From positions 1-38,574 of the forward strand of contig JADFXV010000026.1 in NCBI GenBank assembly GCA_015233395.1: a DNA stretch of 38,574 nucleotides, written 5' to 3'. Positions 11,264 through 20,921 of the stretch are shown here, one piece after another. Each line of letters opens with the position of its first letter. Position 1 is the first letter of the stretch. Source of the DNA: Desulfovibrionaceae bacterium (GTDB lineage: Bacteria; Desulfobacterota; Desulfovibrionia; Desulfovibrionales; Desulfovibrionaceae). The position numbers were made by a program, and so were the translations under genes. Under the pieces are notes generated by a model. That model searched no databases and was not told the origin of the DNA. It saw nothing but the letters and a program-made list of their open reading frames with translations.

Positions 11264-12838
11264 TCATTCTCCGTTGCAGGGAGTGTCGGAGAACCGGTCC
11301 CGGATGGCCAGGAACTCGTCCAGGTTGGCGAGCAGGAGGTCGAGCATTTCGGGATCGAACTGCCGGCCGCGCTGTTTGCGCATATACTGAACGATCCGCT
11401 CCATGTCCCAGGCTTTGCGGTAGACGCGGTCGCTGGCCAGGGCGTCGAAGACGTCGACCACGGCCCCCAGGCGGCCGTAGACGTGGATGGCCTCGCCCGC
11501 GAGCCGGTTCGGATAGCCCGTGCCGTCGTAGCGTTCGTGGTGCTGGTTGGCGATGATGGCCGCGGTCTGCAGGATGGCGCGCCGCGAGGGTTTGAGCAGT
11601 TCGAAACCCAGGCCGGAATGCTTTTTGACCTCTTCGAATTCCGCCTCGGTGAGCCGGCCCGGCTTGTTCAGGATGGCGTCCGGGATGGCCAGCTTGCCCA
11701 CGTCGTGCAGCGGCGCGGCCACGCGCAGCATGTCCGCCTCTTCTTCGGGCAGGCCGTATTTGCGCGCCAAAAGCCGCAGGTATTCCGAGACGCGGCGCAC
11801 GTGGTTTCCGGTTTCCTTGGAACGGCATTCGATGGTTTCGCCGAGCGTGAAGATGATTTCGCGCTGGGTGTCCTCGATTTCCCGGTTCAGGCAGATGTTG
11901 TCGAAGGCGATGCCCACGTTGTTGAAAAAAATGCCGACGAGTTTGCGGTCGAGCTCGCTCAAGACGCTGCAACCCTCAAAGTAGAACAATTTTTTCAGTC
12001 CGGTTTTGCTGCGCACCAAGCCGGCGAAGCGATTGCCCTCGATGTGGTGCATTTTCTCCGATCGGGCGGCGCGCAGGGCGAAGTCGACCACCTCTCCCGG
12101 CAGGTCGCGCTCCAGAATTCCGCCGAGGTATTGTTCGTAGACCCCGCGCGCGGCCAGGACGCCCATGCCGCCGCCGTTGGGGGCGAAGGCGGCGAATCCG
12201 GAAGGGGCGGCGGCGCGTTCGTGCAGGCAGGTCAGGATCTGGAGCTGTTTGAGCACGGAACCGGAGAATTTCTCCAGGCTTTTGCGCTCGAAGATCGCCT
12301 TGGAGGCTTCGATGACGTGTTCGAGTCCATCGCGGTTGGCCTCGATGGTCAGGATGTCGCAATAGGTGCGCAGGGCCGCCAGGATGGTGGTGGACAGTTT
12401 TTGCGCCGTGAGTTCGGTTTTTTCCTTGTAGTCGTTGATGTCGTATTCGACGATGATCCGGCCTTCCGGGGCGTGCCCGGGCTGGCCGGTGCGCAGGATG
12501 ATGCGCACGAACGGGTTGCCCACGGTTTCCCGGATGTATTTGACCAGGGCCAGGCCGGTGTCGTTTTCCTCCATGACCACGTCGAGCAGGATCACGGCCG
12601 CGTCCGGATTGGCGGCGATGACGCTTCTCGCCTGCTCGCCGGAGAAGGCGGAGACGAAGGCGAGCCCCCGGCCGCGGTATTTGAAGGAGGACAGAACCAG
12701 TTTGGTGACGCTGTGGACTTCGGCCTCGTCGTCGACCACGACCACTTTCCAGGGCGCCCCGCCGGTCTCGCCGGCGGGGCGCCTCCTGGCGGTTTCTGGC
12801 GCGTCGTCGGCGAACAGCAACTGGTCGTTGTGCGTCAT
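11264..12838 (-). CDS. Response regulator with DUF3369 and HD-GYP domains (cyclic-di-GMP phosphodiesterase type), copy 1
   Basis: The 524-residue product has a receiver domain at about 30-140 with acidic pocket Asp36/Asp37 and phospho-acceptor Asp86 (LLDVVME). A DUF3369 sensory-type region follows (about 165-320). The HD-GYP domain at about 325-515 carries HD at 378-379 (PLHDVGKL), HHE at 433-435 and the DGTGYP form of the GYP motif at 438-443. HD-GYP enzymes hydrolyse cyclic-di-GMP to pGpG or GMP. Phosphorylation by an unseen kinase probably controls activity; no sensor kinase is encoded nearby. The true start is ATG 12836-12838, matching the paralog; the open frame continuing to 14563 is a shadow. 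It lies 17 bp downstream of its paralog. Confidence 0.92.
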   Translation of the reverse strand: MTHNDQLLFADDAPETARRRPAGETGGAPWKVVVVDDEAEVHSVTKLVLSSFKYRGRGLAFVSAFSGEQARSVIAANPDAAVILLDVVMEENDTGLALVKYIRETVGNPFVRIILRTGQPGHAPEGRIIVEYDINDYKEKTELTAQKLSTTILAALRTYCDILTIEANRDGLEHVIEASKAIFERKSLEKFSGSVLKQLQILTCLHERAAAPSGFAAFAPNGGGMGVLAARGVYEQYLGGILERDLPGEVVDFALRAARSEKMHHIEGNRFAGLVRSKTGLKKLFYFEGCSVLSELDRKLVGIFFNNVGIAFDNICLNREIEDTQREIIFTLGETIECRSKETGNHVRRVSEYLRLLARKYGLPEEEADMLRVAAPLHDVGKLAIPDAILNKPGRLTEAEFEEVKKHSGLGFELLKPSRRAILQTAAIIANQHHERYDGTGYPNRLAGEAIHVYGRLGAVVDVFDALASDRVYRKAWDMERIVQYMRKQRGRQFDPEMLDLLLANLDEFLAIRDRFSDTPCNGE

Positions 12839-12855: not shown

Positions 12856-14472
12856 TCAGGTTTGCGGCGAGCCGTCGTTTTGCGCCGCGGCGGGCAGCCG
12901 CCCGTCGAGATGATCGTCGCGCAGAGTCAAAAACTCGTCCAGGTGGACGAGCAGGATGTCGACGATGTCCGGGTCGAAGTGTTTGCCGCGCTGGGAGCGC
13001 ATGTGCTCGACCACGGCGCAGACGTCCCAGGCCTTGCGGTAGATGCGGTCGCTGATGAGCGAGTCGAAGACGTCCACCACCGCCGCCAGCCGTCCGTAAA
13101 GATGGATCTGCTTGGCCTTGAGCCCCAGCGGATAGCCCAGGCCGTCGTAACGCTCGTGGTGCTGGTGGGCGATGATCGCCGCGGCCATGAACACCTCCCG
13201 GCGCGAGGCCTTGAGCAGGTCGTAGCCGGCCCCGGGGTGTTTCTTGATGGTCTCGAATTCGGCCGTGGTGAGCTCCTCGGGCTTGTGCAGGATGGTGTCC
13301 GGGATGGCCAGCTTGCCCAGGTCGTGCAAGGGCGAGGCCAGGCGCAGGATCTCGGCCTCGTTTTCCGGCAGGCCGTATTTCAGGGCCAAAAGATGCATGT
13401 ATTCCGAAACCCGGCGCACGTGGTTGCCCGCTTCGGGCGAGCGGCATTCGATGGTTTCGCCGAGCGTGAAGATGATTTCGCGCTGGGTGTCCTCGAATTC
13501 CTTGTTCAGGTAGATGTTGTCGAAGGCGATGGAGACGTTGGAAAAGAAGATGTTGACCAGATGGCAGTCGAGTTCCGAGAGGGTGTCGTGGCCTTCGAAG
13601 TAGATGATGTTTCTCGACCCGGTTTTGCTTTTGAAGAAGCCGACATGGCGGTTGTCGTCCACGATGTTGGGGGTTTCGGATTCGATGGCCTGGCGTAAAA
13701 ACGCAAAAATCTTCGGGGATACGGCTTCTTCCAGGCTCTTGTCGACGATGTCCAGGTACTTGCCGGTGGCGGCCTTGATGATGAAGCCCTGTTCCTGGGC
13801 GGTGGCGGCGAAGCTGGAGTGGCAGTAGATGGCGTCGCGTTTGAGATCGAGCAGGGAGGTGAGCTGGGTGAGCACGCCGTTGGTGAATTTCTGCAGGCTT
13901 TTGCGCTGGAAGATGTCGCGCGAGGCCTCGATGATTTTTTCCAGTCCCTGGCGGTTGGACTCGATAGTCAGGATGTCGCGGTAGGTGCGCAGGGCGCTGA
14001 CGATGGTGGTCACGAGCTTCTGGGAGGTGAGCTCGGTTTTTTCCTTGTAGTCGTTGATGTCGTATTCGATGACCACCCGCTCTTCCGGGGCCTGGCCGGG
14101 CTGGCCGGTGCGCAGGATGATGCGCGCGAACTTGTTGGCGGCCTCCTCGCGGATGAACTTGACCAGCGTGAGCCCGGTGTCGTTCTCCTCCATGACCACG
14201 TCGAGCAGGATGATGGCCACGTCCGGATTGGCGAGGATGGCGCTGCGCGCTTCGCTGCCGGTATAGGCGCTGATGAAATGGAGTTTTTTGCGGCGGTAGC
14301 TGAAGTCGGACAACACCAGCCGGGTGACGCTGTGCACCTCGGCCTCGTCGTCCACGATGAGAATTTTCCAGGGTTCCGGATCGTCGAATTCCGCGCTGGC
14401 GCGGGCTTCGATGCAGGACTTCTTTCCGCATTCGCCGGAAAACAGCAACTCGTCGTTCGGGGACTGCGCCAT
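12856..14472 (-). CDS. Response regulator with DUF3369 and HD-GYP domains, copy 2
   Basis: A 538-residue paralog of the next gene with the same order: receiver (Asp41/Asp42, phospho-acceptor Asp91), DUF3369 (about 170-330) and HD-GYP (HD at 383-384, HHE at 438-440, DGLGYP at 443-448). All catalytic motifs are present, so both copies should be active cyclic-di-GMP phosphodiesterases. I start at ATG 14470-14472 with GGGGAAG upstream. The DUF3369 sensory parts of the two proteins are strongly diverged, while the receiver and HD-GYP parts are close. One stretch of 55 nt is identical. That suggests the copies sense different inputs but have the same output. It is first in the predicted transcript with copy 1. 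Confidence 0.92.
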   Translation of the reverse strand: MAQSPNDELLFSGECGKKSCIEARASAEFDDPEPWKILIVDDEAEVHSVTRLVLSDFSYRRKKLHFISAYTGSEARSAILANPDVAIILLDVVMEENDTGLTLVKFIREEAANKFARIILRTGQPGQAPEERVVIEYDINDYKEKTELTSQKLVTTIVSALRTYRDILTIESNRQGLEKIIEASRDIFQRKSLQKFTNGVLTQLTSLLDLKRDAIYCHSSFAATAQEQGFIIKAATGKYLDIVDKSLEEAVSPKIFAFLRQAIESETPNIVDDNRHVGFFKSKTGSRNIIYFEGHDTLSELDCHLVNIFFSNVSIAFDNIYLNKEFEDTQREIIFTLGETIECRSPEAGNHVRRVSEYMHLLALKYGLPENEAEILRLASPLHDLGKLAIPDTILHKPEELTTAEFETIKKHPGAGYDLLKASRREVFMAAAIIAHQHHERYDGLGYPLGLKAKQIHLYGRLAAVVDVFDSLISDRIYRKAWDVCAVVEHMRSQRGKHFDPDIVDILLVHLDEFLTLRDDHLDGRLPAAAQNDGSPQT

Positions 14473-14553
14473 GAACTTCCCGGGGCCTGAGGACGTTAAG
14501 GCAAGCGGATCGCTCCGGCCACAAACAATGCGGCAAGTTACCACGAAAGAAAA

Positions 14554-14565
14554 CGTTGCGCAACG
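14554..14565. promoter_or_regulatory. 12-bp perfect palindrome upstream of the HD-GYP pair, candidate operator
   Basis: CGTTGC is followed directly by GCAACG, 82 bp upstream of the copy 2 start. On the minus strand it overlaps TTGCGC, which with a 17-bp spacer to TAACTT could be a weak promoter. The position suits a repressor or activator site for the two-gene unit. Confidence 0.3.
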
Positions 14566-14658
14566 CTTGCCGGAGATTTCGGAAGGTTCGCGTAACGGGC
14601 CGGTATCGCGCGATTTTTGGTCCAAAAGGACCAAGGCGAGCGCGACGGCCGAGGATCG

Positions 14659-16233
14659 TCAGCCGCGTTTCGTGGAAATAAAACGCTTGGGATCCAGGCC
14701 GTATTTTTTGACCTTGTAGTTGACGATGCGATAGCTCTCGCGCAGGTCCCGGGCGGCCTTGAACATGTTGCCGCCGGCCTTTTTGAGCGCCTCGACCAGG
14801 AGTTCGCGTTCGAAACCGGCCACGGCCTCGCCAAAGGACAACCGGCTGTCGGTGGCCGAACTCTCCGCGGTCTGCAGGGTGGGCGGCAGATGGTAGGAGC
14901 GGATGACCCCCTCGTTGCAGACCGCCACCGCCTTTTCCATGCAGCCGCGCAGTTCCCGGACGTTGCCCGGCCAGTGGTATTGGCCAAGCAGGTCGATGGC
15001 CGGGGTGGAGATGCGCTTGACCTGCTTGTCCGCCTGCTGCGAGAATTCGGCCAGGAAGCGCTCGGCCAGCGGCAATACGTCCCCCTGGCGGTCGCGCAGG
15101 GCCGGGATGAAAATGGGAAAGACGCCGATGGCGTAAAGCAGGTCTTCGAGCAGCGCGCCCTGGTTGACCAGTTCCTCAAGCGCTTTGGTCGAGGCGCAGA
15201 TCAGCCGGACATTGACCTTGACCGGCTTGTCCGCGCCCCGGCGCGTGATTTCATGGTGCTCCACGGCGTGCAGCAACTGCGCCTGGACGGACGGCGGCAA
15301 TTCCTCCACGTCGCCAATGAACAGGCTGCCGCCGTCGGCCAGCTCGAATGCGCCCTTGCGGGTCTGCGTCGCCCCCGGGGCCTTGCCCTTTTGGACGCCG
15401 AACAAGGTTGCGGCGGCCTGCTGCGCTCCCGCCTCCCGGCCGGAAAAGCGCACCAGGGGCCTGGCCGCGCGGGCGCTTAGGGCGTGGATGGTTTCGGCCA
15501 TGAACTCCTTGCCCGTGCCCTCTTCGCCCCGGATCAGCACCGGGGCGCTCGCGGCCGCGGCCTGGGCCACCTGGCGCAGAACCAGGCGCATGGCCTTGGA
15601 AGCGGCCAGGGGTTTGGACAGGGCCGGCGTGTGCGGCGCGAACTCGCCGGGCTCTTCCTTGCGCGCTCTGTCCGGCTTGGCCAGCTCGGCTTCGAAGCGG
15701 TCGGCGCGCAGGCCGACGATGGCCGCGATGAGCTCCAGAAATCCCCGGTGGTTCTCCAAAAAGACCGTCGGCGCCTTGGGCAGGTCCACGCACACCAGTC
15801 CCAGGATCGCGGCCTTGGGCGCCGCCCCGCGCTCCGGCGGGCCGTGGCGCCTGGGCTGCGGGATCGGGGCGCAGATGCAGGACAGGGTTTCCAGCTCCAG
15901 CGGGGGGCGGCCCGCGAAATCGGGGTGCCCGTCGAGATTGTCCACGATCACGCCGCGCTTGGTCACGGCCACCTGGCCGATGAGCAGCGCGCCCGGGCCG
16001 TAGAGATGCCCGAAGCCGGATTCGCGGCTTTTGGACATGGAAATCCGCACGTTCTGGTGGGTTTCGCCGAAGATCATCAGGTGGGCCCGGGCGTAGCCCA
16101 GGTCCTTGATGAGGATGGAAAGCAGGCTGTCGAGGCCGGCGCGCAGGGGAGTGACGGCGCTTAAGTTGTCGATGATCGCCCGCAAGGCGGCCTGAAAGCC
16201 CGGCCAGGCGCCGTCGACGGCGTATTCGATCAT
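14659..16233 (-). CDS. GAF-AAA+-Fis regulator resembling sigma54 activators, with degenerate ATPase motifs
   Basis: The 524-residue product follows the plan of NifA-type activators: GAF sensor (about 17-180), AAA+ domain (about 205-430) and a Fis-type helix-turn-helix (about 475-515). Walker A is present as GEEGTGKE (236-243), and WPGNVREL (421-428) is intact. But the GAFTGA loop that contacts sigma54 reads GKAPGA (283-288). Walker B reads LFIGDVEEL instead of the usual LFLDEI-type. The FREDLYYRL block with the arginine fingers reads LLEDLLYAI (361-369), so both arginines are missing. It therefore probably cannot remodel sigma54 polymerase, and may instead be a ligand-sensing DNA-binding regulator. 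It lies 69 bp downstream of iorB on the same strand, so it may sense an aryl-pyruvate or regulate the ior genes. Confidence 0.85.
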   Translation of the reverse strand: MIEYAVDGAWPGFQAALRAIIDNLSAVTPLRAGLDSLLSILIKDLGYARAHLMIFGETHQNVRISMSKSRESGFGHLYGPGALLIGQVAVTKRGVIVDNLDGHPDFAGRPPLELETLSCICAPIPQPRRHGPPERGAAPKAAILGLVCVDLPKAPTVFLENHRGFLELIAAIVGLRADRFEAELAKPDRARKEEPGEFAPHTPALSKPLAASKAMRLVLRQVAQAAAASAPVLIRGEEGTGKEFMAETIHALSARAARPLVRFSGREAGAQQAAATLFGVQKGKAPGATQTRKGAFELADGGSLFIGDVEELPPSVQAQLLHAVEHHEITRRGADKPVKVNVRLICASTKALEELVNQGALLEDLLYAIGVFPIFIPALRDRQGDVLPLAERFLAEFSQQADKQVKRISTPAIDLLGQYHWPGNVRELRGCMEKAVAVCNEGVIRSYHLPPTLQTAESSATDSRLSFGEAVAGFERELLVEALKKAGGNMFKAARDLRESYRIVNYKVKKYGLDPKRFISTKRG

Positions 16234-16302: not shown

Positions 16303-16920
16303 TTAATTCTTTTGCGCCGCCGCCGCGCCAAGCCGCAAGGCGGCCAGGTTGACCTTGGCCAGGGCGGGCTTCAAATAGGCGGTCGCGGCCCTCTCCAGGG
16401 CGTCAAGACCGAAGGGCAAGGCCCCGGCTCCGGCGGCCGCGCCGAGCAGAACCATGTTGGCGCTCTGGGCGTTGCCCGCCCGGGCGCCCAGTTCCCGGCA
16501 GGGGACGAACACGGCCCTGGCCGCCCACTTCCGGGTTTCGGCCTCGATAACATCCTGTTTTGGGTAGGTATCTTGTCCGAGACTCACCCGCAAGGGGGGC
16601 ACGGACTCGGTGTTGCCCACCACCATCCCGCCCGAGGCGAGGTAGGGCAGCGCCCGCAAGGTTTCCAGGGGCTCAAAGCCAAGCAGCAGGCCGGCCTCGC
16701 CGAAGCCGATCTTGGGGCTCAGGTAACCGCCGAGCAAGACCGCCGATTCGACCACGCCGCCGCGCTGGGCCATGCCGTGGATCTCGCCCGCGCTGACCAA
16801 AAATCCCTCGTCCAGGGCCGCCTTGGCCAGCAGGGTGGTGGCCGTGAGCGTGCCCTGGCCGCCGACGCCGGTCAGAAAAATCCGCAGCCGCATCATGTTC
16901 GGGACCGTGTCCTGGCTCAT
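16303..16920 (-). CDS. iorB: Indolepyruvate:ferredoxin oxidoreductase, beta subunit
   Basis: The 205-residue product has the gamma-domain signature of 2-oxoacid:ferredoxin oxidoreductases: FLTGVGGQGTLTATTLLA near the start, then GEIHGMAQRGGVVESAVLLG, the usual IorB motifs. Together with IorA it oxidatively decarboxylates indolepyruvate and other aryl-pyruvates to acyl-CoA, reducing ferredoxin. Its ATG overlaps the iorA stop in ATGA (16917-16920), so the subunits are translationally coupled. A longer frame reaching 17655 is a shadow of iorA. Confidence 0.93.
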   Translation of the reverse strand: MSQDTVPNMMRLRIFLTGVGGQGTLTATTLLAKAALDEGFLVSAGEIHGMAQRGGVVESAVLLGGYLSPKIGFGEAGLLLGFEPLETLRALPYLASGGMVVGNTESVPPLRVSLGQDTYPKQDVIEAETRKWAARAVFVPCRELGARAGNAQSANMVLLGAAAGAGALPFGLDALERAATAYLKPALAKVNLAALRLGAAAAQKN

Positions 16921-18767
16921 TTCCCGGCCTCCTTGGACGTGGCCTTGATCTCTTTGCAGATCTGCGCGCAGAGCATGCAGCCGGTGCATTGGCTTTCGTT
17001 GATGGCGAAACGCCCGTTCTCCAGATAAAAGGCCGGGCAGGCCACGGTCGCCAGAACCTCGCCGCAGGCGTCCGGGTCTCCGGCGACGCGGGCCGCGACC
17101 GCCTTGGCGGATTTCTTCACCCTTTTGGCGTGGATCGGACAGGGCTCCTCGGCGATGAGCACGCGCACGCCGGAGGCCGCCGCCAGTTCGGCGATCGCCG
17201 CTGCCGCGGCCTTGTTGTTGACCGGGTTGACCTTCTTGACCTGGGTCACGCCGCAGGCGCGCACCAGGGTCATGATGTCCACCCGGGCCTCGTTCTCGCC
17301 GTGGATGGTGGCGTCCACCCCGGGATTGGGCTGGTGCCCGGTCATGCCGGTGGTGTGGTTGTCGAGGATGACCACGAGCAGGTTGTGCCCGTTGAACACA
17401 GCGTTCACCAGGCCGGTGATTCCGGAATGGAAAAAGGTGGAATCGCCGATGAAGGCGACCACGGGCTTGTCCGCGGCCAGGGCGAACCCGGAACCGGCCG
17501 AGACGCTCGACCCCATGCACAAAGTGAAGTCGGCGGCGCGAAACGGCGGCAGGATGCCAAGCGTGTAGCAGCCGATGTCCGAGGAATAATAGGCTTCGTC
17601 GCCGTACACCTGGCGCACGGCCAGAAACGAGGCCCGGTGCGGGCAGCCGGCGCACATGTTGGGCGGACGCTGGGCCAGGTCAAAGTCCGGCGGGGCGTGC
17701 GCCACGCTCACCGGCGCAAGCGCAAGCGCCCGGCGCAGGGCGTCGCGCACGACCTGGGTGGAATATTCGCCGTGGCGCGGCAGGCTCTCGCCCTTGCCCA
17801 CGACCACGGTTTTCAGGCCGTTTTTCTGGATGAGCGCGCGCAGGTCGTTCTCCAGGATCGGTTCGAGCTCCTCGATGACCACGACCGTGTCCCGGCCGCG
17901 CACGAAGTCGAGCAGCGCCTTTTGCGGCAAGGGATAAGTGAAGCCGAGTTCAAAGACGCTCAGCTTTGCGGCCAAGTCCGCGTCTTCGAGCAGCGCGTCG
18001 CGCAGGTAGGCGCGGCTGACGCCGCTTGCCAGCACGCCCACCGGCCCTTGGCCGGAAATGCGGTTGAAGGGCGAGCTTTCGACCGTCTCCCGGATGGCTT
18101 CCATCCGCTCAAGCAGCGCCGGGTGGTGCTGCCTGGCGTGGGCCGGCAGGGGCACGAACTGGCGGGGATTTTTTTGGCTCGGCCGGCGGCTTTTCGCGGC
18201 CGGAACCTCGCCCAAGACCACCGGGCCGCGCAGGTGGTTGACCCGGGTGGTGGTGCGCAGCATGACCGGATGGGCGGTCTCGCGCGAAAGCGTCAGGGCG
18301 TAGGCGGTCATGTCCTTGGCCTCCTGGGCGGTGGCCGGCTCCAGGCAAGGCATGCCCGCCAGGCGGGCGTAGTAGCGGTTATCTTGTTCGTTCTGGCTGG
18401 AATGGCAGCCCGGGTCGTCGGCCGAGAGCAGCGCCAGCCCGCCCGGGACCGTGATCTGGCACAGGGTCATCAGCGGATCGGCGGCCACGTTGACGCCGAC
18501 GTGCTTCATGGTGGCAAAGGAGAGCAGGCCGCCCAGGGCCGCGCCGCCGGCGACCTCCAGGGCCACCTTCTCGTTGACCGAGTATTCGAAATAGTAGGCG
18601 CCGCTGGCGCGCATGCGGAAAAAGGCGTCCGGAACCTCGGAAGAGGGCGTGCCGGGATAGCAGGCGACGACCGCGACGCCGCCTTCCAGCGCGCCCCGGA
18701 CGATGGCCTCGTTGCCGAGCAGCAGCATGGTTTCGCCTGATGCGGCCTCAAGCAGCGGGTAAGCCAT
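16917..18767 (-). CDS. iorA: Indolepyruvate:ferredoxin oxidoreductase, alpha subunit
   Basis: The 616-residue product is full length. Residues 1-350 are the pyrimidine and domain II part (LLGNEAIVRGALEGGV, ACYPGTPSSE, EYSVNEKVALEVAGGAA). The TPP-binding domain has CAGCPHR at 372-378 and the GDSTFF...LDN motif from 441 to 470. The C-terminal ferredoxin-like domain keeps one full CxxCxxCxxxC set (Cys594, 597, 600, 604), but in the first cluster region only Cys568 and Cys577 remain where four are usual. The enzyme converts aryl-pyruvates from amino-acid breakdown to aryl-acetyl-CoA, giving reduced ferredoxin. I start at ATG 18765-18767 with GGAGG upstream; the much longer open frame to 20657 is a shadow of roo and the TPR gene. 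Confidence 0.94.
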   Translation of the reverse strand: MAYPLLEAASGETMLLLGNEAIVRGALEGGVAVVACYPGTPSSEVPDAFFRMRASGAYYFEYSVNEKVALEVAGGAALGGLLSFATMKHVGVNVAADPLMTLCQITVPGGLALLSADDPGCHSSQNEQDNRYYARLAGMPCLEPATAQEAKDMTAYALTLSRETAHPVMLRTTTRVNHLRGPVVLGEVPAAKSRRPSQKNPRQFVPLPAHARQHHPALLERMEAIRETVESSPFNRISGQGPVGVLASGVSRAYLRDALLEDADLAAKLSVFELGFTYPLPQKALLDFVRGRDTVVVIEELEPILENDLRALIQKNGLKTVVVGKGESLPRHGEYSTQVVRDALRRALALAPVSVAHAPPDFDLAQRPPNMCAGCPHRASFLAVRQVYGDEAYYSSDIGCYTLGILPPFRAADFTLCMGSSVSAGSGFALAADKPVVAFIGDSTFFHSGITGLVNAVFNGHNLLVVILDNHTTGMTGHQPNPGVDATIHGENEARVDIMTLVRACGVTQVKKVNPVNNKAAAAAIAELAAASGVRVLIAEEPCPIHAKRVKKSAKAVAARVAGDPDACGEVLATVACPAFYLENGRFAINESQCTGCMLCAQICKEIKATSKEAGK

Positions 18768-18880: not shown

Positions 18881-19576
18881 TTAGGACGCGGGCTTGGCCG
18901 GGGCCTGCCCTTGCTTGGCCTTGATTTCGTTGATTTTGGCGTCGAAATAGGCCGAGGTGGCGTGCTGGCCCAGATCGCGCAAGGTCTGGTAGGCCGCCAG
19001 CGCCCTCGGATAGTCCCCGGCCTGTTCGGCATAGAGCGCCAACTGGCGGTTGAAGGCGACCTCGAAGGACTTGGGCATCGCATCCTTGGCGGCCACGAGC
19101 ACGGCTTCGGCCTGGGCGTTGTCGCCGTCCTGGGCCAGGGCGGCGGCCTGGCCGAGCACGGCCACGCCTCCCATGGCCGGGGTGGCGGATTTGGCGAGTT
19201 CGCCCCAGGCGCCGGCGGCCTTCTTGAACTGGCCCAGTTCGGTCGAGGCTTTGGCGAGTTCCAGCAGGACCGCCGGTTTGACCGCGTCCGGCGCCTTGGG
19301 CAGGAAGTTCTCCAGGGCCACGAGCCGGTCGGCGCCTTCCTTCTGGATCAGGAGCTGGCCAAGTTCGCTTTCCGCCTGGGCGACGGCCTTTTGCCGGTAG
19401 CTGCGGGCGACGCCGTAGCCGACGGCCAGGATCAGGAGCGCGGCGGCGGTCGCCGCCAGGGGCTTCCAGTTGTCGAGCAGTTTCTGCATGAACGCCGGGG
19501 CGCTGACGGCGACCGGCGCTTGGGACGCTTCCGGGCGGGGCTGGCCCGCGCCGGGTTGAGTCGGATCGAGATTCAT
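18881..19576 (-). CDS. Membrane-anchored TPR-like protein (YfgM-like layout)
   Basis: A 231-residue product: a Pro/Gln-rich cytoplasmic N-terminus, one transmembrane helix at about residues 38-57, then an Ala-rich helical repeat region (ESELGQLLIQKEG, VLLELAKASTELGQFKKAAGAW, YPRALAAYQTLRDL). This resembles YfgM-type TPR_21 proteins, single-span proteins with periplasmic TPR domains that assist secretion or chaperones; the resemblance is by layout. The start ATG 19574-19576 has GGAGG upstream. A strong promoter lies at 19625-19654. iorA follows after 113 bp on the same strand, so they probably share a transcript, although a functional link to indolepyruvate oxidation is not obvious. Confidence 0.8.
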   Translation of the reverse strand: MNLDPTQPGAGQPRPEASQAPVAVSAPAFMQKLLDNWKPLAATAAALLILAVGYGVARSYRQKAVAQAESELGQLLIQKEGADRLVALENFLPKAPDAVKPAVLLELAKASTELGQFKKAAGAWGELAKSATPAMGGVAVLGQAAALAQDGDNAQAEAVLVAAKDAMPKSFEVAFNRQLALYAEQAGDYPRALAAYQTLRDLGQHATSAYFDAKINEIKAKQGQAPAKPAS

Positions 19577-19624: not shown

Positions 19625-19654
19625 ATTGTAGTCCAAAAAGAAGTAGCATGTCAA
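19625..19654 (-). promoter_or_regulatory. Strong candidate sigma70 promoter for the TPR-iorAB unit
   Basis: On the minus strand, TTGACA (19649-19654, perfect) is followed at 18 bp by TACAAT (19625-19630, five of six). The expected start is near 19618, giving a leader of about 42 nt. It lies in the 139-bp gap between this gene and the divergent roo. Confidence 0.7.
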
Positions 19655-19715: not shown

Positions 19716-20921
19716 ATGAAACCGGTGGCGATCAAAGACGATATCTATTGGGTCGGGGCCGTCGACTGGCAGCGCCGCGATTTCCACGGCTACACCATCT
19801 CGCCCTACGGCACGACCTACAACGCCTTCCTGGTCAAGGACGAGAAAATCACCCTGTTCGACTCCGGGCCCAAGGGCTTCGCCGGGGAAATCCTGTGCCG
19901 CGCGGCCCAGGTCTGCGACCTCGCGGACATCGAATACATCGTGGCCAACCACGGGGAAATGGACCATTCCGGCGCCCTGCCCGAACTGGTGGAGCGCATC
20001 CGGCCCAAAAAAGTCTTCTGTTCGCCCATGGCCGCGAAATCCCTGGCCGCGCACTACGACGTCTCCGGCTGGCCGCTTGAGGCCGTCGATTTCAAAACCC
20101 CGCTTTGCCTTGGCAAACGTAACGTCCACTTCGTCGAGACCAGGATGCTGCACTGGCCCGATTCCATGGTCAGCTATCTTGCCGAGGACAAACTGCTGAT
20201 TTCCCAGGACGCCTTCGGCCAGAACATCGCCGGGGCCGAGCGCTTCTCCGACGAGACCGACGAGGGGCTCCTGCGCCGCCAGGCCGCCCGCTACTACGCC
20301 AACATCGTGCTGCCCTATTCCCCGATGACGCTCAAAACCATCGAGGCCATTGAAAAGGCGGGGCTTTCCATCGACATGATCGCCCCGGACCACGGGGTGA
20401 TCTGGCGCGGGGGAAAGGACGTGGCCAAGGCCATCGCCTGGTACAAGGAATTCGCCCTGCAAAAGCCCACGCGCAAGGCCGTGATCGTTTACGACACCAT
20501 GTGGAAATCCACCGAAACCATGGCCCAGGCCGTGGCCTCGGGACTCGACGACGAGGGCGTCGCCGTGCGCATCATGGCGCTGAAGGTCAACCACCGCAGC
20601 GACGTCATGGAGGAGGTCTGGAACGCCGGGGCGGTCCTGGTCGGCTCGCCGACCCACAACAACGGCATCCTGCCCCCGGTCGCGGCCATGCTGACCTACA
20701 TGAAAGGCTTAAAGCCCAAAAACAAGATCGGCGCGGCCTTCGGCTCCTACGGCTGGAGCGGTGAATCCATCAAGATCGTAAGCGAAGCGCTTACGGACAT
20801 GGGCTTTGAAACCGTCCCCGGGGTCAAATGCCAGTTCGTGCCCAAACAGGAAGCCCTGGCGGCCTGCGTCGCGCTCGGCCGCACTGTCGGCGCGGCGCTC
20901 GCAGCCAAGCTCTCGGCCTGA
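19716..20921 (+). CDS. roo: Flavodiiron protein, rubredoxin:oxygen oxidoreductase
   Basis: The 401-residue product has an N-terminal metallo-beta-lactamase diiron domain and a C-terminal flavodoxin domain from about 254 (YDTMWKSTETMA). All six iron ligands are in place: His79, Glu81, Asp83 (NHGEMDH), His146, Asp165 and His226, with the numbering of the D. gigas enzyme. It reduces O2 to water (some members reduce NO) using electrons from NADH through rubredoxin, protecting an anaerobe from oxygen. No rubredoxin gene is adjacent. The start ATG 19716 has GAGG upstream; frames beginning at 19662 are ignored. It is divergent from the TPR-ior unit and is followed by dsbD after 73 bp. Confidence 0.97.
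   Translation: MKPVAIKDDIYWVGAVDWQRRDFHGYTISPYGTTYNAFLVKDEKITLFDSGPKGFAGEILCRAAQVCDLADIEYIVANHGEMDHSGALPELVERIRPKKVFCSPMAAKSLAAHYDVSGWPLEAVDFKTPLCLGKRNVHFVETRMLHWPDSMVSYLAEDKLLISQDAFGQNIAGAERFSDETDEGLLRRQAARYYANIVLPYSPMTLKTIEAIEKAGLSIDMIAPDHGVIWRGGKDVAKAIAWYKEFALQKPTRKAVIVYDTMWKSTETMAQAVASGLDDEGVAVRIMALKVNHRSDVMEEVWNAGAVLVGSPTHNNGILPPVAAMLTYMKGLKPKNKIGAAFGSYGWSGESIKIVSEALTDMGFETVPGVKCQFVPKQEALAACVALGRTVGAALAAKLSA

Follow-up and report, generated by a model that had tools for sequence, protein, structure and literature searches.

A degenerate GAF-AAA+-Fis regulator encoded in the ior operon of Desulfovibrionaceae that probably no longer uses sigma54

We found that the last gene of an ior operon in a Desulfovibrionaceae bacterium encodes a regulator laid out like a sigma54 activator but stripped of its motor. 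Alignment with its relatives shows that, of the catalytic hallmarks, only Walker A and the sensor II arginine remain, and that the losses are shared throughout its clade. We consider it reasonably probable that the protein is now a sigma54-independent DNA-binding regulator that does not hydrolyze ATP and that acts, probably, at sigma70 promoters. The window, by which we mean the whole stretch of DNA analyzed (38,574 nucleotides of contig JADFXV010000026.1), carries the regulator gene with the following domains and motifs.

14659..16233, minus strand: degenerate GAF-AAA+-Fis regulator (524 aa; coordinates include the stop codon)
15709..16134, minus strand: GAF domain, aa 34-175 (Pfam PF01590)
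15112..15603, minus strand: Sigma54_activat AAA+ core, aa 211-374 (Pfam PF00158)
14845..15096, minus strand: AAA+ lid, aa 380-463 (PF25601)
14701..14814, minus strand: HTH_8 Fis-type DNA-binding domain, aa 474-511 (PF02954)
15505..15528, minus strand: Walker A GEEGTGKE, aa 236-243, kept (alignment, residue table)
15370..15387, minus strand: loop 1 GKAPGA, aa 283-288, replacing GAFTGA (PDB and MAFFT alignments)
15298..15324, minus strand: Walker B LFIGDVEEL, aa 304-312, with D307 changed to G and E308 to D (alignment, residue table)
15127..15153, minus strand: arginine-finger helix LLEDLLYAI, aa 361-369, with the arginines at 362 and 368 lost (alignment, residue table)
14950..14973, minus strand: WPGNVREL with the sensor II arginine, aa 421-428, kept (alignment, residue table)

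The open reading frame runs uninterrupted by stops for 524 residues. A Pfam scan of the regulator placed the GAF, Sigma54_activat, lid, and HTH_8 domains each above cut-off, which bears out the GAF-AAA+-Fis layout proposed in a sequence-only reading of the window. NifA has the same layout, and NifA (TIGR01817) was the top NCBIfam model, but the score of 282.6 bits falls far below the cut-off of 528.85, and we therefore rejected an assignment as NifA. An AlphaFold model of the regulator had a mean pLDDT of 79.6. Its AAA+ domain resembles those of NtrC1, FleQ, FlrC, and LuxO (target-normalized TM-score of at most 0.94), and the AAA+ fold thus appears to be retained.

The sequence-only reading had called GKAPGA, LFIGDVEEL, and LLEDLLYAI altered versions of three hallmark motifs, and our alignments confirmed all three changes. 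The stretches align without gaps with GAFTGA, Walker B, and the arginine-finger helix, both in PDB relatives and in a MAFFT alignment of 60 homologs, and the arginine-finger positions in the window protein are L362 and A368. Walker A and WPGNVREL are present, as had been claimed. We found no second GAFTGA anywhere in the whole protein, so the displaced functional motif against which that reading had guarded is not there. Two further losses had gone unnoticed, one at the switch asparagine (N64 in PspF, S264 in the window protein) and one at sensor I (T349). The correspondence with PspF comes from our own alignment and from the PspF numbering in the available text of PMC4132715 and PMC7175178. 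Since PspF E108D and E108Q are described there as retaining some activity (PMC4132715), the altered Walker B is not in itself proof that function has been lost. With Walker A intact, nucleotide binding may survive. At sensor I, position 349 is histidine in 27 of 35 intact relatives; asparagine is usual there in most sigma54 activators.

Judged by its Sigma54_activat, lid, and Fis HTH domains, the regulator belongs with the sigma54-dependent enhancer binding proteins (EBPs). It departs from them in having GKAPGA for GAFTGA, GD for the Walker B DE pair, L362 and A368 for the two arginine fingers, and no detectable sigma54 promoter at its predicted target, the type III glutamine synthetase gene. 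Nine other sigma54-type activators in the window genome (L002-L010, of 14 listed) carry either GAFTGA itself or a version with one residue changed.

Of 149 genomes searched family-wide, 110 had a match at E<=1e-80, and 11 of the matches stand outside the motif classification. Our residue table holds 61 proteins including that of the window: 20 of clade I, 35 intact relatives, and 6 of a second degenerate group, clade II. Clade I, supported at 100/100 in the tree, consists of the window protein and L040-L058 and spans five genera of one family. N264, F285, T286, E308, R362, and R368 are absent from all 20 clade I proteins and present in all 35 intact relatives. Position 286 is serine in 18 of the 20, and GAFSGA has been counted as a tolerated variant (PMC4641369, available text), but the adjoining residues in those 18 proteins are not tolerated-type changes. 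Clade I has kept the Walker A lysine K242 (19/20), D364 (20/20), and the sensor II arginine R426 (17/20). Because the losses are common to 20 of 20 proteins, we rejected chance or sequencing error as their source. The latter had been named as an objection to the sequence-only reading, and it fails also because the intact orthologs form separate groups while the losses are clade-wide.

Clade II (L084, L086, L087, L090, L092, and L093) shows a different residue pattern, with E308 in 0/6, R362 in 0/6, and R368 in 5/6, and with A or C, not D, at position 308. We classified 40 more homologs: 36 were intact, L418 was intact except for GAFTSA, and three (L416, L417, and L419) were degenerate. These three group with clade II, which has a support of 100/99, the tree that places them being without 14 rows and without 3 of 5 paralogs. 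Named genomes gave 583 matches; of the best 80, 75 had intact motifs and 5, from Solidesulfovibrio, Desulfovibrio sp. DV, and UBA12339, were degenerate; the 75 intact matches rule out universal motif loss. The genus-level search covered the window's own genome only. As intact motifs occur outside the family, the degenerate state is derived, and the best trees require two changes to reach it. An AU test against a single origin gave a p of 0.040 on the ATPase core without the motif columns and of 0.27 with the ATPase core removed. The differing residue patterns of the two clades also point to two origins, and we favor two independent origins, though these are not proven. A divergent intact branch (L080-L083, L085, L088, L089, L091, and L418) has a recognition helix of the TYRIxxYKxKKY type, and g42 carries a copy from this branch alongside a degenerate copy.

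The regulator closes an operon whose other features are as follows.

16303..16893, minus strand: iorB, indolepyruvate ferredoxin oxidoreductase beta (reaches the PF01558 cut-off; below NCBIfam cut-offs)
16917..18767, minus strand: iorA, indolepyruvate ferredoxin oxidoreductase alpha (TIGR03336 above cut-off)
18884..19576, minus strand: first gene of the operon, labelled TPR, 231 residues (gene order)
19625..19654, minus strand: predicted sigma70 promoter of the operon, TTGACA-18-TACAAT (sigma70 p 0.005)

TPR is a working label only, as neither Pfam nor NCBIfam matched the gene at E<=1e-5; by gene order it may be the counterpart of DVU1952. The order TPR-iorA-iorB-regulator, with the regulator last and directly downstream of iorAB as the sequence-only reading had it, was found in 20/20 clade I loci. 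It was also found in 24/27 main-group intact loci (a contig end cuts one of the three misses) and in 1/6 clade II loci, and an ior or TPR match was absent from all 8 neighborhoods fetched for the divergent intact branch. The sequence-only reading had asked whether orthologs share the losses and always lie next to ior genes; both hold for clade I, but ior linkage does not extend to all relatives.

DVU1949 of D. vulgaris Hildenborough appears, from the operon description in PMC4641369, to be the intact counterpart of the window regulator. According to the available text of that paper, DVU1949 is a single-component EBP with an exact GAFTGA and is predicted to regulate nitrogen metabolism; its co-transcription with DVU1952 is reported for seven genomes, and with iorAB for four, and it is presumed to regulate itself through a conserved motif. 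Nine operons make up its predicted regulon and serve nitrogen metabolism and transport; DVU1258 and DVU3392 are among them and are placed under the same regulator as the DVU1952-DVU1949 operon. A conserved sigma54 promoter near DVU1949 was not found by the authors, and the available text mentions no degenerate ortholog (PMC4641369). The window regulator falls in the tree among intact ior-linked relatives and shares with DVU1949 the TPR-iorA-iorB-regulator operon, as most intact main-group loci do. DVU1949, compared here by its description, keeps GAFTGA, whereas the window clade has lost the loop, Walker B, and the arginine fingers. We take DVU1258 to be the type III glutamine synthetase and DVU3392 to be type I.

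Directly downstream of the regulator lie two response-regulator-like genes (11267-12598 and 12859-14634, both minus strand) that look like a tandem duplicate. Both match a NosR-type c-di-GMP phosphodiesterase model below its cut-off, and the 12859-14634 gene has DUF3369 and HD domains. On the other side, a divergent flavodiiron protein gene (19716-20918, plus strand; flavorubredoxin-like, below NCBIfam cut-offs) adjoins the ior operon; among the ior neighborhoods scanned, it is present in the window only.

We scored promoters with approximate sigma54 and sigma70 matrices and took p values from 200-300 dinucleotide shuffles. Intact relatives share a palindrome at the operon promoter, with the consensus TTTGACATTAATGTCAAA. 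It was found at p<=0.01 in 25/25 intact operon loci, scores that are not independent because 18 of the 25 promoters trained the matrix, and at p<=0.03 in the 4/4 clade II operon loci that have an upstream region. In contrast, none of the 20 clade I operon promoters has it at p<0.1, and at the window promoter the p is 0.78. Clade I retains the -35 element (TTTTGACA) and has lost the second half-site. At 15/25 intact and 3/4 clade II operon loci, the -35 of the best sigma70 match falls within the palindrome. No locus of any class had a sigma54 match at p<=0.05 at the operon promoter.

Across eight clade I genomes, we counted 31 occurrences of the pattern TTKACAWWWWTGTMAA, allowing at most one mismatch, compared with 6 for a reversed control, each palindromic place being counted once and G030 alone giving 11 and 3. 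By coordinates, 7 of the 31 lie upstream of a type III glutamine synthetase gene or glnA. A first pattern, TTTTGAC-N6-GTCA, which had 44 matches in 15 genomes against 20 for its reversed control, was set aside.

The clearest contrast came from the type III glutamine synthetase gene, whose upstream region we compared in 67 genomes, 50 with an intact regulator (all regulators read) and 17 of clade I; 3/20 clade I genomes are without the gene. A sigma54 promoter at shuffle p<=0.05 was found in 35/50 intact genomes and in 0/17 clade I genomes, while the palindrome at p<=0.05 was found in 35/50 and 17/17, respectively. With a raw sigma54 score of >=9 the counts were 44/50 and 0/17, a cut-off chosen after an earlier scoring round that already included 14 of the 67 genomes; the shuffle p is the fairer measure, since the raw score climbs with local A+T. 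The 0/17 does not amount to 17 independent cases, because the clade I genomes derive from one transition, and some intact genera also fail at sigma54 p<=0.05 (g29, 0/8; g15, 0/2; g16, 0/1; g44, 0/1).

The distance between the best site and the -12 element is 83-94, 116-118, 126-130, or 181-192 bp in 40/50 intact genomes (a clustering scored without a control), and the site looks like an upstream activating site. The predicted palindromic site at this gene is TTTACAATATTGTAAAA; in clade I it stands 166-279 bp ahead of the start codon, and in the window genome it occupies positions 24292-24307 of contig C73. Sigma70-like promoters overlap or adjoin it in g9 and in the window genome. All seven g9 genomes have, by eye, a TTTAC[AT]-17-TACATT pair with the -10 within the palindrome (shuffle p 0.005 and 0.055 in the two tested). 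The window genome has its best sigma70 match, TTGACA-16-TATGAG (p 0.05), just downstream of the site, whose center is 14 bp upstream of the -35 center.

Other nitrogen genes gave a mixed picture. We saw no sigma54 contrast at p<=0.05 upstream of glnA, with 1/10 intact and 1/8 clade I regions positive (the start codon is misplaced in region L167). For amtB, of which we examined 30 of 51 matches, a sigma54-like promoter was present in 11/13 intact copies versus 4/14 clade I copies. Neither the site nor a sigma54 promoter reached p<=0.05 in any of 20 type III glutamine synthetase regions scored for clade II, four of them from genomes without a clade II regulator. A second type III glutamine synthetase of g42 (L300; G137:C1:2393700-2397400) has a perfect sigma54 promoter, TGGCACGCTTCTTGCT, with a palindrome upstream; the intact regulator copy of g42 is about 7 kb away.

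Selection has acted unevenly along the protein. Three clade I genera were tested, and their median omega in the AAA+ core was 0.19-0.26, compared with 0.02-0.08 in 5/6 intact groups with usable pairs and 0.15 in intact g42; pairs with dS<=0.05 or >=2.5 were dropped, which left the intact groups with 0 to 10 pairs per domain. The HTH omega was 0.03-0.04 within the clade I genera tested, and omega stays well below 1 in all domains, with its minimum in the DNA-binding domain. Mean identity in the core was 0.57 among 7 clade I representatives versus 0.81 among 8 intact ones, and in the HTH it was 0.84 versus 0.83; between clade I and the intact group the HTH averages 75% identity over these 15 hand-picked representatives. 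In these comparisons, constraint fell at the region of ATP hydrolysis and sigma54 contact and held at the DNA-binding end.

A genome-wide loss of sigma54 was rejected as the cause, as rpoN is present in 24/24 clade I and II genomes checked. The suggestion of the sequence-only reading that the regulator may not use sigma54 gains independent support from a predicted target without a detectable sigma54 promoter in the same genomes and from a relaxation of selection that is confined to the ATPase core. That reading had in mind a ligand-binding or scaffolding regulator; the scaffold found no specific support, and a DNA-binding regulator fits better, because conservation is highest in the DNA-binding domain.

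We propose that the ancestor activated nitrogen-assimilation genes through sigma54 under the control of its GAF domain, and that its descendant would no longer drive sigma54 promoters. The Fis domain would still bind palindromes of the TTTACA-N4-TGTAAA type, a link between protein and palindrome suggested indirectly by the operon promoter of the intact relatives and by the predicted DVU1949 regulon (PMC4641369, available text). The GAF domain, the likely input, would sense a small ligand. A 2-oxo acid would suit both the ior operon and NifA-type precedents. The AAA+ fold could serve as an assembly or relay platform, possibly ATP-bound without hydrolysis; ATP may be held as a structural ligand, since Walker A, D364, and mostly the sensor II arginine survive. 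At sigma70 promoters, the protein would be likelier to cover promoter elements and repress than to activate, and we slightly favor repression, although the promoter-like sequence just downstream of the site in the window genome suits an activator equally. We infer the absence of ATPase activity, the dependence on sigma70, the sign of regulation, the ligand, and the binding of this protein to the sites.

How this state arose can be sketched tentatively, in a history that is the most economical one and that we find plausible though short of probable. The ancestor would have worked in two modes, as a sigma54 activator at nitrogen genes and as a sigma70 repressor of its own ior operon, the latter through the palindrome overlapping the operon's -35. 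Clade I would then have discarded the ATP-driven half and reused the old activating site at glutamine synthetase as a sigma70 operator, leaving a pseudo-ATPase transcription factor, and clade II would have lost the same machinery, apparently independently.

NtrC of Rhodobacter capsulatus offers another model, in which the regulator activates at sigma70 promoters by recruiting or stimulating the housekeeping RNA polymerase, perhaps while bound to ATP. According to the available text of PMC10274813, the NtrC proteins of R. capsulatus and Caulobacter have the GAFTGA loop deleted and act on sigma70 promoters; the Caulobacter protein depends on conserved residues in both Walker motifs, A and B, and the R. 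capsulatus protein must bind ATP but need not hydrolyze it. Like the window regulator, they are nitrogen EBP-family regulators without GAFTGA. They differ in that their loop is deleted, whereas the window protein keeps the loop length and has lost its sequence together with the Walker B pair and the arginine fingers, and in that NtrC is a two-component response regulator and the window protein a GAF one-component regulator. The palindrome followed immediately by TTGACA-16-TATGAG in the window genome speaks for such an activator. However, that match has a p of only 0.05, the seven g9 genomes place the -10 in the site as a repressor would, and the intact operon palindrome often overlaps the -35 (15/25), so we regard sigma70 activation as unlikely, if still worth weighing.

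We consider it improbable that the palindromes belong to another regulator and that the window protein acts elsewhere, for example, on the ior operon only or on other genes. The loss of the palindrome from the clade I operon promoter is consistent with this, and some clade I amtB sigma54 promoters must have a different activator. Against it, the clade I HTH is strongly conserved relative to the intact group, the palindrome marks the operon promoter in all four clade II loci with an upstream region and in the 25 intact loci, of which 18 trained the matrix, and DVU1258, DVU3392, and DVU1952-DVU1949 are placed under one regulator in the available text of PMC4641369.

Continued support of sigma54 transcription, by the protein alone with its unusual loop 1 or in mixed rings with an intact activator, seems very improbable to us: Walker A, D364, and the fold are kept and intact-motif activators and rpoN coexist in the genome, but loop 1, the glutamate switch pair, sensor I, and both arginine fingers were lost together and the clade I predicted target has no detectable sigma54 promoter. 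Gene decay or a sequencing artefact is hardly credible, despite faster evolution of the ATPase core in clade I, given a stop-free reading frame in an identical operon at 20/20 clade I loci, losses common to independent assemblies of five genera, and omega well under 1 throughout and lowest in the DNA-binding domain.

Our favored reading remains a sigma54-independent DNA-binding regulator that would hydrolyze no ATP. In homology and in its defective loop 1 the protein resembles the known sigma54-independent EBP relatives without GAFTGA. TyrR, DhaR, HupR, VpsR, YplP, and about 110 homologs have a defective GAFTGA, with a change to Pro at loop position 4 favored in the roughly 110 deviating homologs (PMC3162934, available text). 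TyrR, DhaR, HupR, VpsR, and YplP share with the window protein the route of lost sigma54 contact, as different regulators in different organisms. Loss of GAFTGA is thus already known, from TyrR, VpsR, and Caulobacter NtrC among others. TyrR is also found in aromatic amino-acid metabolism. What our analysis adds is the joint loss of the Walker B pair, the glutamate switch, and both arginine fingers, the intact orthologs in the same operon, and the matching promoter change; in the literature searched, we found no prior description of such a degenerate regulator.

This appears to be a natural case of a regulator that changes its mode of action while its predicted DNA sites are kept and the adjacent sigma54 promoter is gone. 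How a regulon survives once its activator quits sigma54 is hard to see, and GAFTGA loss has so far been described case by case. With intact and degenerate orthologs in the same operon and one family, the state of the regulator, the site, and the promoter type can be compared gene by gene. This makes testable the question of whether an enhancer-type activator that loses its motor and keeps its sites can thereby turn into a repressor or activator of the classical kind. It also calls for caution, as PF00158 proteins annotated as sigma54 activators or NifA may be neither.

Two further one-mismatch palindromes were seen in the window genome. One, upstream of a porin-like open reading frame (L303, about position 2469; C25:3468-3483), precedes a gene without a Pfam match that we called porin-like by eye. 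The other (L304, about position 2760; C80:26259-26274) is found where a nitrogenase component 1-type gene (PF00148), presumably nifE-like, begins, and would link the site to nitrogen fixation.
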